Part shown: positions 38,901 through 60,928 of the stretch, piece after piece
Numbering within the stretch: position 1 is the stretch's first letter
How the letters are laid out: every line of letters starts with the position of its first letter
From: Congeria kusceri
Taxonomy: Eukaryota > Mollusca > Bivalvia > Myida > Dreissenidae
Length of the DNA: 64,000 nt
Assembly (NCBI GenBank): GCA_027627225.1
Contig: CM051034.1
Span: 9,736,761 to 9,800,760, forward strand
Direction: 5' to 3'
Notes under the pieces: model-generated
The model's database searches: none
Seen by the model: only the letters and a program-made list of their open reading frames with translations
Told to the model about the DNA's origin: nothing
Position numbers and translations under genes: made by a program

Positions 38901-41900
38901 CTATGAACTAACATCAAACATATGAACTCTCAAAATAAATATTATAATTACAATCAAATTTAAAGAAGTGACCTCTATTTTAAATTTTACCTGTCACTAA
39001 AGTTATAGCTGCAGCCATGAAACATGTATCCACATGTTGTAAGATTGTTATGGCAGTAAGAAACTAATGAAGAATGGGTTCACAATATTGGAAAACCTAC
39101 TTTCTGTACTGATTGATCCATTTCATTATTAATATTATAAAACATTGTTTCAAGCTGTCGAGAATCTTACCTACTACACCTTTCACAATGCTAGACATGG
39201 TCCTCCCACTTTCATTAACTATAGGCTTTTTCTTTGCATCTGCATTTTCAGCTTTTATGCTTTTAGAAACCATGTCTGGTTTTGACACAGAAACAGCCAG
39301 TTTAACCACAGCCTCAACTTTCTGATTGATGACAGTCCCGATAGGAAATGGGCTAGATTTAGTCACTGTGGTGTCAGTATCAAGTTCATCCCCCCACCAC
39401 TCTGAAGTTAGTGCTGATGTAGGTGTAGTAACACTGTCCAGCTTTGACTGACCAGTCACTGTAGGAACACTGGCTCGCTCCCTTATCACCACAGGAATTT
39501 GCTTCTGTGGAAGTGTTTTAGATGCATTGCCTTTAGATCCATAATTAATTAAATTACCAGATAGGGGTGCTGGGTCTGGTTGTGCAGACAAGTTCCTTTC
39601 CTTAATTGATTCACTGCTGCTGAGTTTTTCAACACAGTCTGGTTCTCTTGATGAACTCTTCCCTTCAACCTCTTCACCCCTGCCTTGTTTTTTATTCAAA
39701 CTCAGTTCTTCATCCCAATCTTCTGTAACAGGTGATTCGCATTCAGTTAACCTTTTCTTCAGGTAGCCTTTACACCAATTCATCTGCGCCTTTAACACAT
39801 TCAGATTCTTATGTGTTGACGTGTTTTCATAATTATTGTTTACAACTTCCCGAAGAGTCGGACCTTTATCAGAGCACAGTCTCAAAATATCTGCTGTGAT
39901 GTTGGTATCGTCGCAAACCGCTATGCGCATCTCAGGTTTCACAATGCTTTCTGTCGACTCATCGCCTTTCCCAGGCACAACAGGACAATTAAGATTCACA
40001 GTCAGATAATTGCTGTTTACATCACCACTGGCTTTATCAAGGTCATTCAGTCTATTACTATCACCACAGTTATCTGACCCATCTTTTTTTAGTACTGCCT
40101 GTGTCAAAATTTTATCAGTGATTGGCATCGGCCGTCTCAGGGGTTTCAGGTCTGTGTCACTGAACCTGCCTGCAAAACCACAGAAACAAGAGCTCTTTGT
40201 AAAACAGGTATGCCTCCTTTAGGTTAAAAAAAATCTGTAAAATATCAAGTTTGGTGAAGATCAGATGAAAACCATGAGAGTGGAACAGACGAAAATTTTA
40301 AATAAATCCAACGGCCAAAGTCTGCAGTTCCTGGGGCAATTATGGCCTCAAACATTTTTATCAACTTTGGTGAAGACTGGATGAAAACTGATGGATTTAG
40401 AAAGCAGAAATGAGTAAAAGGCCTATTTTAGATAATTCCAGTGCCATAACTCCGAAGTTGCTCAGGAAATTTGGTTGATTATCAAACCTGACCAAGATAT
40501 TATGCTCAACAAGATTTTTATCAAGTTTGGTGATGATCGGATAAAAACTGTTTGACTTAGAGAGCGGAAACTGCAAACAAGAGGGCCAAGATGGCCCTGG
40601 GTCGCACACCTGAGTTTAGCTAAAACTGCCACCGTCATGGCGCAAATACTCTCGCCACCTCAATCATTAACAGTAATTGGCGTTGAATAACAACATAAAT
40701 AAGTATGTCGCCAGACAGAAGTGATTTGAAGGAATTTGACAGAGGGTCACCCAAGGAACATTTTTGTGAAAACTATTTTCAAATCCAGCCAGTGTTTTCA
40801 GACAGGACGATTTTTTAAGTTTTCCATATCGTCATATAAGGAAAACTGCCCCGCCCCCTGGCGGCCATGTTTTGTAACGAATCAAAATGCTTTGAAGTAA
40901 TTTGGTAGAGGGTCACCCTAGGAAGATTCTGTGAAAACTTTTTTCAAATCAAGCCAGTGGTTTCTGACAAGAAGATTTTTTAAGTTTTCCAGTTGTTAAG
41001 ATTTTGATTGCCATGGCAACCACAATTCTCAATATATTCTAATGAATTGAAGGAATTTGTTAAAGGACCATCCCAGGAAAATTCATGCCAAGTTTGGTTA
41101 AAATCCTCCGAGTGGTTTCAGAGAAAAAGTTGTTTGAAGTAAAATGTTGACGACGGATGATGGACACAAGACTGATCACGATAACTCACCCTTGAGCACC
41201 TCATGCTCAGGTGAGCTAAAAAGGCAAATTTTAGATAATTCATGGGCCATAACTCCACAATACCTGTGGCGATTTTACTAATTATCGAACTTGGCCGAGA
41301 TATTATGCCCACAAACATTTTCATGAAGTTTGGTGGAGATCAGATGAAAACTGTTGGACTTACTGAGCAGAAACGAATATGGTTACTGACCAACAGCCAC
41401 TGGCAAACCAAGATACCCCGCCATCTTCAATGAGGGTATAATTAGCTTATTTACTTGCCAAATGTTATATGTACGTGTATTAATCAGAATATGAACTGAA
41501 CTGTTTAACAAGCTGCCAAATGTTTTTACTATTAAATACCCAAGAAACTTTTAACGTTTCATTGTGTTGAAGTTGTTAAATATACACTGAATATTAAATA
41601 CTGAAATCACCAATTATTTAAAGGAAACTCGATAGAACTTCTTGTTCATTATATACGTTATTTTATACCTTTTGTCAACTTTAAATTAAAATTAATTTAG
41701 TTTTCTGAATATGCAACAACAATGACATAACTAGTGTTTTATCCAGGAAGGCAGAGGGGCATGGTGCAATATGTTCGATAAGGGCATTTTAGCGCGCTGT
41801 GTCCTTATATAGAGTATCATAATCTACAAATTTTGTATTTAAAAAAAACATGTAAAAGCATGTTGTCACACTCGGTAAACTGAACAACAAACATATTATG

Positions 41901-44900
41901 ATGTGCGAATAGTTATACATATAGGGAGAGACGTTAATGGGGCGAGTCGTTAATGGGGCGAGTCGTTATATATTCGTCACACCCTTATCCCAAATACAAG
42001 TTTTTAAATTTGGATTGATTTTTGAATGAATACGATTGATTATTTCAATTACAAATATTGACACCTGAAAAATGGACTTGAATACAAAATTTGTATATTA
42101 TGATACTCATAGCCAATACACTGAAACACATGTGCCCTTTTAAACGGAAACAGCGCGCGAAACGAACACGGATAGTATGAGGGGGAGACATCAATCTACG
42201 AGTTGACATTATGTATGTTAATCGAATAAGCATCATCAATTAGGCCTAAATGTCACCACTTTAGTCGGATTAAGAATCAGTTTCAATAATCAAGCTGACA
42301 ATCAATAGAACAGTAATGGATTTAATCAAATCAATAAGAAATGCATGTATGCATTAAACAGAGCACAGTCAGAGCGACAATAACAGAAAACAGCGGGTGC
42401 TCTTTTCGCAGACATAGGGTAAAGAGGCAATTAAGATCGTTATCGATTAGGGCGAGTGGCGGCTTTTGCCTTTGAAAAGGGCAAAGTGGCGCTTCAAAAA
42501 AAGGGGCATGGTGCCGCGTCATGCCAAAGGGGCCTAGATAAAACACTAATACCACTATCTGGTGAGCCGACAATACCATTACCAGGTTTAACAGCATGCA
42601 GCTGGCAGTTACCTGTGGTGTCACTCTGAGACTCAGACACATTCACTAATGTTGAGGCCATGGGCAGTCGTAGAGGTTTCAAATCTTCAAGTCTCTCGCC
42701 TATTACTCTTCCTTTCAAATTCTGAAAGTACTTGGTTTTCACTTGAAGCACCTGCTCTTTACATTTTTCATTCAAGTCCTCAAGGGTTGGACCCACATCT
42801 TTCACAGTCACGTCAGCACTGATTTTACCTTCATCTTTATGCTTCATATTCTTGCGTGTAGTGCCACCCTCTGCCGCTTTTATAAGGGTCTCAGACATTT
42901 CGTTCATCTGATCACCCGAACCCTTATCCCCTGCTTCATCAACTCTGCTGCAAAATAAATCTGAGCCATCACCACTCAACTCGCTAGTTCGGTCAGACTC
43001 AGTAATTACTTGTGTAGCCCTTGACGAGGCCCTGTCAAATTTACTCGGCACATCTTGATCTTTACACCCCCCAGTCACACTTTCTTTAACACTGTCTGCA
43101 TTCTTAGCTGCAGTCTTGTTTTCATTCTTTTCAACACATTCCTCATCATTCAACATGCCATCATCATCATCAATACCTTCTTGTTCTTCCTTCTCTTCAT
43201 CTATCTCTTTAATACACTCCAGTCTTGGAGGTCCCATAGGTAAAGGTATGTCTCGAACATCAACTGCGTAACAATCAGAAAGTTCTTCATCTGCGATAGG
43301 TTCTATCTTCTTTCTATCCAATGAGTTGTTATCTACATTTACATCTGTAACCCCAACTCCCGTCGCCTCGGGTGGGATCACATCATCATTGAGATGATGG
43401 TTTTCTAAGCCAGGGGGCTTCCTTTTCAGTCTGTCTCTAGCATTGTCAATGTCTGCCATATAAGATGAGCAATGCAAGGATTTTTTAGCACGTATGTCTG
43501 GCAATGGCTGGGAAGACACTTGACACATGCACGACACACACGTACACACACGTTGGTCAGGAAGAACACCGTGGTACGGCTGAAATGCGGTGCTGCTTTG
43601 CTGCATGAGCATGGGCACATTTGACGAAAGGTAGAGATTAACAGATGATGGCGGCTCGGAAACCAGAGATCCAGGTTGGTTCAATGCTGCAAATCCTGGT
43701 GGCGGAGGACTGGTTTTCTTCCTCAGATTTAGACCGCCCGGTCTGACGTCATGGCAACTGCATGGCGGGGAGAGGATACCCAGAGTGTCGGCGAAGTACT
43801 GGGACACGGTCTGTCCACCGCAGCAGCTCTGGTTGGCAGTCAGAGTCTGGGCACATGGCACTGAACACATGGCGCCCTGGGATGGACACATGGATGTTTA
43901 CTCATGGTTATCTGAAGGTCGCTCAACTGAGGGGCGAAGCAAGTTTCATGTTGATTGGGCAACAAATGTGGCCTCTATAGTGTTCACAAGCTTTTTCTTT
44001 AATTTGCCCTGGTGACCTAGTTTTTGAACCCATGTGACCCAGTTTTGAACTTGACCCAGATATCATGAGAACAAATGTTATGAGCAAGTTTCATGTTGAC
44101 TGGACAAAAAATGTGGCCTCTATAGTTTTCCCAGGCTTTTTCTTTAATTTGCCCTACTCACTTAGTTTTTGACACCCAGTTTCGAACCTGTTGGAGTTAT
44201 CATTGGAACAAATGTTCTGGGCAAGATCCATGAAGACTGGGCAATAAGTGTGATCTATAGTGTTCACAAGGTAAATGAAGACGACCATTGATTAACAAGG
44301 AACGATAAACGATGGACGACGGACAAAACGCGATCACAAAAGTTTACAAGTTAATAAGTTTTCATTATGGTTTGACAAACAAAAGTAGTTTGAATACAAC
44401 AAATTATTTGTTTTACATGTACTAAGCTTTCTGTTCGAAATTTTGTAGAAAAAGTACATCAGCAACATTCACATCTAACTTACAACTAACCGACTTAAGA
44501 GATGTCTTTTCTTAGTGCAACATACTGACTTAGTTTCAGTTCTCACCAATCAAATTTAATGAAGAAGTTTCGTAGAATTCAATGCAATCGAGCCTCAAGT
44601 TTAATCCAGGTAGCACTAGCAACAAGCAAAATACAATTTCTAAGGTTTTTTGAAACAAAGGTTACCACCTTACCACATAGAATAGGAGCATTTGCATTGA
44701 AGTTAAAAACATATTAAATTGTTAATGCAGGGTACAGAAAACGAAGATTATTTTGGGTGTGCATCCAAGTAAGTGGCTAATGGCTACACAATGTATCAAA
44801 CCCAAACGTGGTCTTAACTGAGAATACTGACCAAGGAAAATGATTGTTAATACATAACTGCCTTGAATTTCATTAGCTAATATATCGCGCTGAGAGTTTG

Positions 44901-53089: not shown

Positions 53090-56000
53090 ATGGGGCGAGA
53101 ACATTCGGGGAAGTTCTCGCTTGTTGTTCTTATTCTAAGCGTTACCGTGGCAATATTATGGATGCCAGATTTCCCGGGGGTACGTTCGATGAAGACGTCG
53201 GACGTTGAACTAAGCGTTTCCGGTAACAGACGTCGCTTAAAGGAGCGAAAGCCAGACGAAGATGAACGCTTTGGTAATAATACTTATAAATTTCATGTAT
53301 TGTTATTATCATTATTATTATCATTTCTTTTTAATATTGTGTAGCGTGTCGGTTCAGTATAAGTTTAGTAATATACTTTGAGGACACGTACTGTACGACT
53401 AAATTAGAACCGATATGCTCACATAAACCCATATTTGTAGAACGTGTTCCCTTAGATTTCTTTCATTGTTATTTTCGTGTGTTGTGGAAATAAGATCATC
53501 ATGTAACTGATTACCCAAACCCCAAATTAATGAATGTACTTGTGCTTTTATGCACCTATGCAATATTTTTCCCCAGAGGGGGAGCGGCGGGCATATACGG
53601 GACTTTAGACTGAAAGCGGTTCCCGACAGTAGGGAATTTGACACACCGAATGATTCCGGGTCCCGGGAAATAGACTGTTCGGATTTTAGATCCCGGTTAA
53701 TATTGGTTCCGGGCCATTTGATACATAAATTAAGCATCTCCCATTGAGGCGATTTAGACAAAAATGCATGGATCTAGGGTGGGGAATTAAACACCCAAAA
53801 TACAATTAGTCGAATTCCCCTGGGTTTGCCGACAGTTCCCCCATCGGGGGAAATATTGATATGTGCATTAGTACTTTTCATTTTTTGTTCCGCGATTGGG
53901 AGTAGAGATGTGCATATACTGATATGGTTTGTTGCTGGCGCATTTTCTTGGAAATAATTAAGACGTTTGCCAACGATAATGTATCAGTACTAAATTTTCC
54001 AAAGACCATCGTGAATCTTCGTAACAAGTAAAACAAAAAAGAAAGTGAACTAAACTATAACTACCATTGTTACAGTGTACGAACTGTCCCAAAACTACGA
54101 CGAGAGTGTAAACCGCTTCCTGGCAAAGTCCATCATCTCCAGCCATCTGGAGGCCAGCTACCAGTACCTATATATGGTAATGTAACAGTCACACTTAGTC
54201 ACCAGTACCTATATATGGTAATGTAGCAGTCACTCGTACCTATACATGGTAATGTAGCAGTCACATTCAGTCACTAGTACATATACATGGTAATGTAGCA
54301 GTCACACTCAGTCACTAGTACCTATACATGGTAATGTAGCAGTCACACTCAGTCACTAGTACCTATACGTGGAAATGTAGCAGTCACGCTTAGTCACCAG
54401 TACCTATCCATGGTAATGTAGCAGTCACACTTAGTCACCAGTACCTATACACGGTAAAGTAGCAGTCACACTCAGTCACTAGTACCTATACGTGGTAATG
54501 TAGCAGTCACGCTTAGTCACCAGTACCTATACATGGTAATGTAGCAGTCACACTTAGTCTCCAGTACCAACACACGGTAATGTAGCAGTCACACTTAGTC
54601 ACCAATACCTATACGTGGTAATGTAGCAGTCACACTCAGGCACGAGTACCTATACATGGTAATGTAGCAGTCACACTCAGTCACTAGTACCTATACGTGG
54701 TAATGTAGCACTCAAACTCAGTCACCAGTACCTATACATGGTAATGCAGCAGTCACACTCAGTCACTAGTACCTATTCATGGTAATGTAGCAGTCACACT
54801 CAGTCACCAGTACCTATACATGGTAATGCAGTAGTCACACTCAGTCACCAGTACCTATACATGGTAATGTAGCAGTCACACTCAGCCACCAGTACATATA
54901 CATGGTAATGTAGCAGTCACACTTAGTCAACAGTTCCTGTACATGGTAATGTAGGGGTCACACTCAGTCACTAGTACCTATACATTGTAATGTAGCAGTC
55001 ACACTAAGTCACTAGTACCTATACATGGTAATATAGCAGTTACAATCAGTCACCAGTACCTATACATGGTAATGTAGCAGTCACACTCAGTCACCAGTAC
55101 CTGTACATGGTAATGTAGCAGTCACACTCAGTCACCAGTACCTGAACATGGTAATATAGCAGTCACACACAGTCACCAGATTCTATACATGGTAATAGTA
55201 GCAGTCACACTTATTAACAAGTACCTATACATGGTAATGTAGCAGTCACACTCAGTCACCAGTACCTGTACATGTAGCTGTCACATTCAGTCACTAGTAC
55301 CTATACGTGGTAATGTAGCAGTCACACTTAGTCACCAGTACCTATACGTGGTAATGTAGGAGTCACACTCAGTCACCAGTACCTGTACATGTAGCTGTCA
55401 CATTCAGTCACTAGTACCTATACGTGGTAATGTAGCAGTCACACTTAGTCATCAGTACCTATACGTGGTAATGTAGCAGTCACACTTAGTCACCAGTACC
55501 TCTACATGGTAATGTAGCAGTCACACTCAGTCACCAGTACCTGTACATGGCAATGTAGCAGTCAAACTCAGTCACTACTACCTATACATGGTAATGTAGC
55601 AGTCACACTCAGTCACCAGTCACCAGTACCTATATATGGTAATGTAGCAGTCACACTCAGTGACCAGTACCTATACATGGTAATGTAGCAGTCACACTCA
55701 ATCACCAGTACCTATACATGGTATTGTTGCAGTCACATTTAGTCACCAGTACCTATACATGGTAATGTAGCAGTCACACTCAGTCACCAGTACCTGTACA
55801 TGGTAATGTAGCAGTCACACTTAGTCAACAGTTCCTGTACATGGTAATGTAGGGGTCACACTCAGTCACTAGTACCTATACATTGTAATGTAGCAGTCAC
55901 ACTAAGTCACTAGTACCTATACATGGTAATGTAGCAGTCACACTCAGTCACTAGTACCTATACATGGTAATGTAGCAGTCACACTCAGTCACCAGTACCT

Positions 56001-59000
56001 GTACATGTAGCAGTCACATTCAGTCACTAGTACCTATACGTGGTAATGTAGCAGTCACACTTAGTCACTAGTACCTATACGTGGTAATGTAGCAGTCACA
56101 CTTAGTCACCAGTACCTCTACATGGTAATGTAGCAGTCAAACTCAGTCACTAGTACCTATACATGGTAATGTAGCAGTCACACTCAGTCACTAGTACCTA
56201 TACGTGGTAATATAGCAGTCACACTCAGTCACTACTACCTATACGTGCTAATGTAGCAGTCACACATTGTCACTAGTAACTATTCATGGTAATGTAGCGG
56301 TCACACTTTGTCACTGGTACCTATACATGGTAATGTAGCAGTCACACTTACTCACTAGTACCTATACGTGGTAATGTAGCAGTCACACTCAGTCACCAGT
56401 ACCTATACATGGTAATGTAGCAGTCGCACTCAGTCACCAGTACCTATACATGGTATTGTTGCAGTCACACTTAGTCACCAGTACCTATACATGGTAATGT
56501 AGCAGTCACACTCAGTCACCAGTACCTGTACATGATAATGTAGCAGTCACACTTAGTCAACAGTTCCTGTACATGGTAACGTAGGAGTCACACTAAGTCA
56601 CTAGTACCTATACATGGTAATGTAGCAGTCACAATTTGTCATCAGTACCTATACATGGCAATGTAGCAGTTACACTCAGTCACTAGTACCTTTACATGGA
56701 AATGTAGCAGTCACACTCAGTCACCAGTAGCTATACATGGCAATATAGCAGTCAAACTCAGTCACTAGTACCTATACATGGTAATGTAGCAGTCACACTC
56801 AGTCACCAGTACCTTTACATGGTAATGTAGCAGTCACACACAGTCACCAGTACCTATACATGGTAATGTAGCAGTCACACTCAGTCACCAGTACCTATGC
56901 ATGGTATTGTTGCAGTCACACTTAGTCACCAGTACCTATACATGGTAATGTAGCAGTCACACGCAGTCACCAGTACCTGTACATGGTAATGTAGCAGTCA
57001 CACTTAGTCACTAGTACCTATACATGTGTAATGTAGCAGTCACACTTAGTCACCAGTACCTATACATGGTAATGTAGCAGTCACACTCAGTCACCAGTAC
57101 CTATACATGGTAATGTAGCAGTCACACTCAGTCACTAGTTCCTATACATTGTAATGTAGCAGTCACACTAAGTCACTAGTACCTATACATGGTAATGTAG
57201 CAGTTAAAATCAGTCACCAGTACCTATACATGGTAATGTAGCAGTCACACTCAGTCACCAGTACCTGTACATGGTAATGTAGCAGTCACACTCAGTCACC
57301 AGTACCTGAACATGGTAATGTAGCAGTCACACTCAGTTACCAGTCACCAGTACCTTTACATGGTAATGTAGCAGTCACACTAAGTCACCAGTACCTATAC
57401 ATGGTAATGTAGCAGTCACACTTAGTCAACAGTTCCTGTACATGGTAATGTAGGAGGCACACTCAGTCACTAGTACCTATACATTGTAATGTAGCAGTCA
57501 CACTAAGTCACTAGTACCTATACATGGTAATGTAGCAGTTACAATCAGTCACCAGTACCTATACATGGTAATGTAGCAGTCACACTCAGTCACCAGTACC
57601 TGAACATGGTAATGTAGCAGTCACACTGAGTCACTAGTACCTATACATGGTAATAGTAGCATTAAAACTTATTCACAAATACCTATACATGGTAATGTAG
57701 CAGTCACACTTTGTCACTAGTACCTATACATGGTAATGTAGCAGTCACTCTTTGTCACCAGTACCTATACATGGCAATGTAGCAGTCACACTCAGTCACT
57801 AGTACCTTTACATGGTAATGTAGCAGTCACACTCAGTCACCAGTACCTATACATGGCAATGTAGCAGTCAAACTCAGTCACTAGTACCTATACATGGTAA
57901 TGTAGCAGTCACACTCAGTCACCAGTCACCGGTACCTTTACATAGTAATGTAGCAGTCACACTCAGTCACCAGTACCTATACATGGCAATGTAGCAGTCA
58001 CACTCAGTCACCAGTACCTATGCATGATATTGTGGAAGTCACACTTAGTCGCCAGTGCCTATACATGGTAATGTAGCAGTCACACTCAGTCACCAGTACC
58101 TGTACATGGTAATGTAGCAGTCACACTTAGTCAACAGTTCCTGTACATGGTAATGTAGCAGTCACACTCAGTCACTGGTACCTATACATTGTAATGTAGC
58201 AGTCACACTAAGTCACTAGTACCTATACATGGTAATGTAGCAGTTACAATCAGTCACCAGATTCTATACATGGTAATGTAGCAGTCACACTCGGTCACCA
58301 GTACCTGTACATGTAGCAGTCACATTCAGTCACTAGTACCTATACGTGGTAATGTAGCAGTCACACTTAGTCACCAGTACCTATACGTGGTAATGTAGCA
58401 GTCACACTTAGTCACCAGTACCTATAAATGGTAATGTAGCAGTCACACTCAGTCACTAGTACCTATACATGGTAATGTAGCAGTCACACTCAGTCACTAG
58501 TACCTATACGTTGTAACGTAGCAGTCACACTTAGTCACCAGTACTATACATTGTAATGTAGTAGTCACACTTAGTCACCAGTACCTATACACGGTAATGC
58601 AGCAGTCACACTTAGTCACAAGTACCTATACATGGTAATGTAGCAGTCACACGCAGTCACATGGTAATGTAGCGGTCACACTCAGTCACCAGTACCTATA
58701 CATGGTAATGTAGCAGTCACACTCAGTCACCAGTACCTATACATGGTAATATAGCAGTCACACTTAGTCACAAGTACCTACACAGTAGCAATCACACTCG
58801 TTTATCTGCTATACTTGTTTTTGTCCACCACAAGACACAAAAGTGCTTATTTAGGTGACATAAGTTTGCATGGTGTCGTTAGTGTGCAGAACTGAATATA
58901 TTTTTTGACCATAGTGTTTTGTAAAATAACTGCGTCGTTTTTAAAAGGGACAATATTCTTGTTTCATTGTGTCTTCGGGGTATAAATTGTTCAAAGGGAA

Positions 59001-60928
59001 TGCAAATTTGTGTATTTGTTTGATCATCCATTTTGTGATGGTTCATCTATGGTGCTTGTTTTTGGCACCCATACATAACAAGTCAGTTGGGCATACATAT
59101 GAGTCAGTGCGATGTCCATGGAAACAAGTCTATGAGTGTAAGTTCATCTTCGGCACATAATGTATGATGTTAATAGAAACATGTCTGAACGTTTTAATCC
59201 AACTTCTTCAAATAATGACCATGTATTATGTCTATGAAAACATGTCAGTGCGCTTTAGTCCAACTTCTGCACATAATGAGCATGTGTGATGTCAATGTAA
59301 ACATGCCTGTGCGTTTGAATTCAACTTCTTCAAATAATTACCATAATTGTGTGAAGTCAATGGAAACATGTCTGTGCGTTTTAATCCAACTTCTTCATAT
59401 CATTAGCATGTATGATGTCAATGGAAACATGTCTGTGAGTTTCGGTCAATGGTCTTGAAATAATGAGCAAGTGTGATGTCAATAGAATCATACATGCTTT
59501 TGTTTACAGTCGAACTTCTTCGAGCGCAGTGACGTTGCCCTGCCCGGGTTTGCCAAGTTCTTCAAGAAGGCGTCCGACTCCGAGATGGACAACGCCCAGT
59601 TCCTTATGGACTACCTGAACAAACGTGGGGGATTCTACGTATTCGGGGACATTGACGTACGTTGACATTTTATTTCTCACTTTCTATAACTTTTAATTTG
59701 TTTCAATGCTGGTTATATTCCAGTAAGGGAAAGTTTGGAAATTTGTTATTTTGCAATTTGTTGATATTATTTAGCTTAGTTTTAGATGAACACGGAGTGA
59801 ATATAAAAAGTGTATGCTTTCACTTAAGGTGAATGTAACTGCAATTGAAATAACATTATTGACTCTTTCAATCTAAAAGTCAGAAACAGTCCTTGAAGCC
59901 TAAAACCGCATGTTAATCATTATCACTCAAACGCTTTCTTAAAAGTAATGTGGCACATATATGCTTCTCAGTGTTCGTACAGATCTGCAAAAGTCATGGC
60001 AAATGGGCTTTGTCTGGAAAAATCATGGAATCTTGAAAATTTTGATTTTATCATGGAAAAGTCATGGAATTTTCTAAAATTGTCATGGAAAAGTATTCGT
60101 GTATATGACTGTACGTGCATAAAAATGATCAAATCTATTGAAATATAATCAAACAAAAAATCAAGATCAAGATCGTAATGTTGGATAGACATGTATAGTG
60201 CAGCACTACAAGCAATTCTATGCTATTCTAGAGGGTGTGAATCAGCCTAGATAAACAATTTTATTATGTCAATCAAATAAAATGTGGATATCCGTGTACT
60301 ATTTTGACTTCTGTATGTACGGATTGTTTCATGGAAAACTGAGCTTTATCATCGAAAAATCATGGAATTAAGGTTTCAGTAGTTTGTGTGAAGCTAGAAT
60401 GATTCTTTCCTAGGCCAACAGTCATAACGTTACGAATTACGAATTCTTGATATTTGCAAAAGCAACATGTAAACCATTACTTCATTTTTGTAGATTCACT
60501 TCAACTTCCCCATACCAGCGAAAGTATCTATGCGGACAGCTTTAAAAAAAATAGTCCAAACATTGTTGTAATCAGTTGCATAATCAAATAAAAGGAAGAT
60601 GTTTCGGAATAGTTCAGTAAACTTCGAATTTTGTTATCATTATTTTAAAGTCAACATAACAAGTCGATTCGCTTCTCTGATCTTAATTTATAGGCAGAAT
60701 CACAAATAAAATATGGTGCCTATATTTAACGCGTTCTCTGTGAATCGTTTCTTTGCCGCACGGCATCTCTTAGAGTTCCCGATCTTGCAGGGTCCCTCCG
60801 TGTTCACGTTCGTGGAGAAGGAGGACTTGGCCATGGAGTCCCTCATTAAGGCGCTGCTGCTGGAGACTCGAACCTTCCACCGCCTCACCAAGATACACGA
60901 GCGAGCCGAGCGCAAGGGAGATGCACAT
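53090..60928 (+). CDS. Secreted-type ferritin-family protein, 3' end beyond window
   Basis: Exons 53090-53273, 54076-54176, 59510-59656 and 60791-60928 are GT/AG and in phase, giving 190 residues; the last exon (ferritin helix E and part of D) must lie past 64000. Residues ~9-25 ([17 protein letters not shown]) are a signal peptide or anchor, followed by a basic linker with RRRLKERK. The ferritin fold begins near residue 68: [40 protein letters not shown] and NKRGG match helices A-B. Exon 4 covers helices C to early D, with a loop about four residues longer than human H chain. Of the ferroxidase ligands (human H numbering), Y34, E62 and E107 are kept, but E27 is His85, E61 is Ser119 and H65 is Asn123. 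A normal ferroxidase centre is therefore unlikely. Intron 2 is almost entirely a minisatellite. Family identity is secure; function (iron storage, delivery or immune) is not. Confidence 0.88.
54160..58795 (+). repeat. 4.6-kb ~41-bp minisatellite derived from an exon/5' splice-site junction
   Basis: More than 100 tandem copies of a ~41-bp unit, typically CCAGTACCTATACATG then GTAATGTAGCAGTCACAC then a TCAGTCA-type spacer. The true exon-2 end of the ferritin-family gene (CCAGTACCTATATATG, exon ends at 54176) and its donor (GTAATG) are the first unit. So the array was seeded by duplicating the last bases of the exon together with the splice donor. Variants (CACTAGTACC, CAACAGTTCCTGTAC, CATTGTAATG) recur in the same order at intervals of about 0.7-0.9 kb (near 54928, 55827, 56558, 57427, 58130), showing higher-order amplification. 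Copy number may be collapsed or variable. Confidence 0.95.
59105..59485. repeat. ~62-bp minisatellite
   Basis: About six diverged copies of a ~62-bp unit with GATGTCAATGGAAACATGTC, then TGTGCGTTTTAATCCAACTT, then a CTTCAAATAATGA-like stretch. It directly precedes the acceptor of the ferritin exon at 59510, so intron 2 is tandem repeat almost from end to end. Confidence 0.85.
59985..60400. repeat. TCATGGAAAA-rich repeat
   Basis: Repeated short words AAAAGTCATGGAATTT and AAAAATCATGGAAT over two clusters (59990-60095 and 60330-60375), in ferritin intron 3. Probably two parts of one dispersed repeat. No coding potential. Confidence 0.45.

Follow-up and report, generated by a model that had tools for sequence, protein, structure and literature searches.

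A 41-bp minisatellite spanning an exon-intron boundary of a ferritin gene in the bivalve Congeria kusceri

A ferritin gene with a tandemly repeated splice junction

The 64,000-nucleotide stretch of Congeria kusceri contig CM051034.1 analyzed here (the window, C11:9736761-9800760) carries a gene whose product is a ferritin (Pfam match to PF00210), and whose intron 2 is largely occupied by a 41-bp minisatellite (Table 1). The repeat unit of this array corresponds to the exon 2/intron 2 boundary of the gene. Unit 1 is the real boundary, in which the last 17 nt of exon 2 are followed by 24 nt of intron 2, so that exonic and intronic bases of one junction are repeated together. The first-pass annotation of this DNA had described the unit as a copy of the exon 2 end plus the 5′ splice site, with the donor G at 54177, and alignment bears out both statements. 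Minisatellites that span such boundaries have been termed “mirages” in amphioxus (PMC3087553, PMC3902484).

The best protein match is a “ferritin, middle subunit-like” sequence of Dreissena polymorpha, with 76% identity over 190 residues in a gapless alignment covering exons 1 to 4. Within this orthologous protein the join falls exactly at the exon 2/3 boundary without a gap, and the YQYLYM sequence at the end of exon 2 is conserved. At two putative ferroxidase positions of the alignment, the window ferritin has His and Asn instead of Glu and His. The gene (53090-60928), whose product starts with a hydrophobic stretch, may encode a secreted, catalytically weak subunit.

Tandem Repeats Finder (TRF) confirms the array, reporting a period of 41, 113.4 copies, 87% matches and 3% indels, and degenerate remains extend to ~58795. 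The copies lie head-to-tail inside the adjoining intron, all on the plus strand, as judged by TRF and by a search with a 29-mer from the unit. When up to three mismatches are allowed, this 29-mer occurs 98 times in the window, always within 54164-58761, and never in 100 shuffles. Wrap-around alignment resolves 114 units, the partial last unit included, among which there are 85 distinct sequences. A higher-order repeat was sought and rejected, since the mean distance between units is 4.8-5.5 at lags 1-45 (overall 5.4) and near-identical runs reach a maximum of six. Three of the 41 positions in unit 1 depart from the array consensus, and one of the three is exonic. Exon 2 is the likely source of the array because the coding bases of unit 1 are constrained, as the retention of YQYLYM in D. 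polymorpha indicates.

To learn where else the unit occurs, an 82-nt dimer was searched against the species' own 1.55-Gb assembly, with very common words skipped and only the best candidates scored. All 57 genome places among these best candidates fall at C11:9790920-9795529, which is inside the ferritin array. The same unit at many loci, as expected of a dispersed satellite, was therefore not found by this search, and the array does not appear to be a genome-wide satellite that exists independently of the exon.

Table 1. Coordinates of the window ferritin gene and of tandem arrays in it and in three further ferritin genes
Feature	Position	Strand	Basis or remark
Ferritin exon 1, coding part	53090..53273	+	Translation and splice words; N-terminal hydrophobic stretch, signal-peptide-like
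Ferritin exon 2, 101 nt, end ...YQYLYM	54076..54176	+	Gapless alignment over exon 2/3 join
Intron 2, ~87% of length array	54177..59509	+	
41-bp array of donor-side mirage type, 113.4 copies, 114 aligned units	54160..58784	+	TRF, alignment
Array unit 1, real exon 2/intron 2 boundary	54160..54200	+	Donor GT 54177-54178
In-frame TAA if first donor unused	54183..54185	+	
Second intron 2 array, 61 bp x 5.4	59160..59491	+	TRF; near exon 3 acceptor
Ferritin exon 3	59510..59656	+	
Ferritin exon 4	60791..60928	+	
Ferritin exon 5	C11:9801205-9801336		Outside window
L020 exon 2/intron 2 boundary, two tandem copies, 39 bp	L020:8849-8924	minus	C1:53897500-53907400; same position as in window gene
L020 exon 5 acceptor array, 18.8 x 30 bp	L020:553-1114	minus	C1:53897500-53907400
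L019 exon 4 donor array, 3.3 x 44 bp	L019:5562-5709		
L019 exon 5 acceptor array, 2.9 x 37 bp	L019:7365-7472		
L018 intron 1 array, 33-bp units, 4.5 kb	L018:7065-9901 into L021:1-1720		Ends 45 nt before exon 2

Donor strength and conservation across the array

Most units retain a recognizable donor. Across the aligned units GT is present in 98 of 114 (86%), GTAATG in 88 (77%) and ATGGTAATG in 67; ungapped word counts over 54160-58795 give 86 for GTAATG and 64 for ATGGTAATG. The proposal that nearly every unit keeps GTAATG is therefore sound for the GT dinucleotide and a little strong for the full word, although the word is certainly not lost from most units.

The predicted strength of these copies was compared with that of the true donor, which RNAduplex pairs with the 5′ end of U1 at −6.9 kcal/mol through five pairs, a bulged U at +5 and three further pairs. 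Counting the true donor itself, 77 of the 98 GT units reach at least this energy, versus 3.3% of 1252 background GTs. Likewise, 65 of the 98 equal or exceed its score on a mammalian matrix, the true donor again counted in. The earlier view of the units as competing donors thus holds in terms of predicted strength. Because neither U1 energy nor matrix score marks out the first donor, we infer that position must do so.

The consequence of using a later donor is uniform. Without use of the first donor, the reading frame continues as ATG GTA ATG TAA, the immediate stop that had been foreseen, and the predicted product from any later donor is a 97-residue protein ending in YLYMVM.

The donor columns carry no mark of maintenance. 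Agreement with the consensus is 92.0% over the nine donor columns and 92.5% over the other 32, with T at +2 matching at 88.6%; GTAATG alone reaches 94.0%, which is no clear excess over the rest of the unit. This is the pattern expected for copies without selection. It argues against decoys maintained by selection; how the transcript is spliced is a separate question. RNA structure that masks the inner donors was also considered and rejected, as the sequences fold no better than shuffles (z of −0.10 for the real junction, 0.84 for one unit and 1.56 for two units). A scan of the whole window against Rfam yielded no matches at gathering score.

Near the other end of intron 2, the 61-bp array was considered as an acceptor-side amplification of the exon 3 start. 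This origin was not established, with 9 of 300 shuffles performing equally in one comparison and p ~0.1 in another.

Junction-spanning arrays in ferritin paralogues

Three further ferritin genes were read, L018, L019 (on C12) and L020 (on C1), making four with the window gene. Four junction-spanning arrays, at donors and acceptors alike, are new here, and all lie in two of these paralogues, L019 and L020. In L020 the boundary at the same position as that of the window gene is present in two tandem copies. The 30-bp unit of the exon 5 array of L020 holds the TTTTCAG acceptor together with the 6 bases that open exon 5, and its best copy is identical at 25 of 25 positions. Among the acceptor-like CAG words found by pattern upstream in this array, 7 of 9 would give TAA as the third codon. 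The exon 5 array of L020 is the acceptor-side mirror image of the donor-side array in the window. The later copies of the L019 exon 4 donor array lack one base at the splice word.

Other junctions in these genes gave weaker or negative results. For the exon 4 acceptor of L020, alignment picked up a faint copy (score 26; p ~0.005 by shuffling) with no TRF array, and it is outside the five arrays counted below. No junction array is present at the four junctions of L018 that were tested, and its 33-bp intron 1 array was rejected as a copy of the exon 2 acceptor, there being no match and 70 of 200 shuffles being equally good.

Overall, a TRF array with an edge 5-17 nt inside an exon occurs at 5 of the 24 junctions tested, and alignment identifies the same five, a count that comes from one gene family (the four ferritin genes) and was made after some arrays had already been seen. 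The 24 do not include junctions that could not be placed, which in L018 are those of exons 1 and 4 and the acceptor of exon 5, and in L019 and L020 the 5′ side of exon 2. The local density of array edges predicts 0.0074 per junction for edges 3-20 nt inside an exon, or 0.18 in 24 junctions. The excess has a Poisson probability of 1.3×10−6, or 3×10−5 when the window array is taken as given and four others are counted among 23 junctions, with the chance rate drawn from the same 131 kb. Tandem arrays cover 24% of these 131 kb.

L034 (C1:67425923), a locus nearly identical to L020 over the exon 2 region, has an in-frame stop and carries the boundary once, such that the two sequences differ there by one 39-bp gap. 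As read from these sequences, the pair is what a first boundary duplication would look like, and would represent an early stage.

Elsewhere in the window, two open reading frames lie on the minus strand. One (42494-43891, 465 aa) has no Pfam match and no homologue at E 0.001, and the other (39097-40128, 343 aa) has no Pfam match.

Probable origin and tolerance of the array

We favor, with a probability of roughly 0.78 based on sequence analysis, the interpretation that the array is a donor-side mirage, in which a short duplication of the boundary was enlarged by ordinary minisatellite growth and the first donor is still joined to exon 3. Both the order of events and the success of the first donor are inferred. 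The exon 2/intron 2 boundary would first have been doubled by a short duplication in tandem, neutral growth to ~114 copies would have followed, and splicing from the outermost donor would join 54176 to 59510, the start of exon 3. This donor probably prevails for two reasons: the exon that it ends has a normal length of 101 nt, as favored by exon definition, and it is the first to be transcribed. Exons ending at later donors would measure 142 nt up to ~4.7 kb and carry a stop at codon 98, and the resulting messages would probably be degraded by nonsense-mediated decay. Inner copies would then be free to drift, and use of the outermost site is the likely reason why such arrays are tolerated. The 85 distinct sequences among 114 units and the absence of a strong higher-order period fit long local turnover. 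Amphioxus mirages and human IFI6, both compared below, may serve as precedents for tolerance.

Some considerations weigh against this interpretation. The first donor would have to be singled out by position alone, given that its U1 energy is attained by 77 and its matrix score by 65 of the 98 GT units, itself counted each time. Downstream repeat units are used as donors in IFI6, and therefore leakage to ferritin units 2-3 is plausible. Finally, the difference between L020 and L034 could reflect loss of one copy in L034.

It was suggested originally that the array tunes transcript output through its copy number. In such a functional rheostat, inner donors would turn part of the transcripts into messages that carry the stop, and copy number would set ferritin output. 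The shared early stop of all later donors and the strong U1 pairing of most GT units would suit this role. However, the donor columns lack excess conservation, and mirages in amphioxus are reported not to disturb splicing (PMC3087553, PMC3902484). Copy-number tuning thus gains no support, and we regard it as improbable. Slightly less probable still is a platform whose many binding sites keep U1 on the intron as it is transcribed, shielding it from premature polyadenylation or speeding its recognition. There are ~77 U1-like sites in 4.6 kb, and the 4618-bp array stretch contains no AATAAA and one ATTAAA. Nonetheless, AATAAA is missing because the 41-bp unit lacks it, which counts against a protective role, and the U1 word is under no selection. 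Least probable is that a satellite of other origin, or an artefact of assembly, happens to adjoin exon 2, for despite the local density of tandem arrays the unit includes 17 exonic bases, the best-candidate genome places all lie in this array, and 85 distinct units do not look like assembly duplication.

A broader proposal, which we advance tentatively and would not bet on, is that splice junctions are hotspots for tandem duplication in this genome, with arrays arising over exon edges much more frequently than expected by chance and with donors and acceptors affected alike. The spliceosome would choose the outermost site among dozens of equivalent ones and introns would grow from their ends, the window array being the extreme product.

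The natural row of 98 GT donors, most of them equal in predicted strength, could show cleanly whether the spliceosome chooses a donor by position alone. The paralogues represent smaller stages, with 1, 2, 3 and about 19 copies, and permit a stepwise comparison of origin and tolerance. If junction-anchored arrays are common in the genome, they would provide a route of intron growth, and perhaps of intron gain, outside chordates.

Comparison with known boundary-spanning repeats

The first-pass annotation considered amplification of an exon-intron boundary unusual. Rather, boundary-spanning minisatellites are a described class, as amphioxus mirages and human IFI6 attest, and two ferritin paralogues are alike in this respect. 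The comparisons below draw on excerpts of the cited articles. No boundary-spanning minisatellite of a bivalve was found in open-licence PMC texts. Among molluscs, intron 3 of a Pacific abalone TSSK1-like gene contains a length-polymorphic 27-bp minisatellite (PMC6905558). This is likewise a molluscan intronic minisatellite, but the excerpt states no overlap with a splice junction, unlike the ferritin array (PMC6905558).

Internal tandem repeats at exon-intron boundaries occur in human segmental duplications, where they may change splicing or create introns (PMC2812944). These have units averaging 30 bp, repeated 4 times, in recent primate duplicates (PMC2812944), as compared with 41 bp and 114 units for the ferritin array. 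A minisatellite at an exon end of human IFI6 (6-16, G1P3) reportedly gives repeated splice donors, according to a 1995 title by Turri. The first and two downstream repeat units of IFI6 serve as donors (PMC4526556). Alternative donors yield protein isoforms in IFI6, whereas the first alternative in the ferritin array already brings a stop.

Further close parallels are the mirages of amphioxus, which occur at both boundaries, are unstable in length and reportedly leave splicing undisturbed (PMC3087553, PMC3902484). They affect the globins BflGb6 and BflGb9, Adh3, TnC and PGBD5 (PMC3087553, PMC3902484), and RT-PCR (reverse-transcription PCR) of the globins together with Adh3 data suggests that splicing is not disturbed (PMC3087553). 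The ferritin array resembles them in having exonic and intronic bases in the unit, tandem copies in the adjoining intron and a splice word that is mostly kept. The amphioxus globins have 3-6 units of 150-160 bp and Adh3 has units of 10-72 bp. The ferritin array, with 114 units of 41 bp, fits the mirage class, and its size far exceeds that of the published cases compared here, as these are described in the excerpts.
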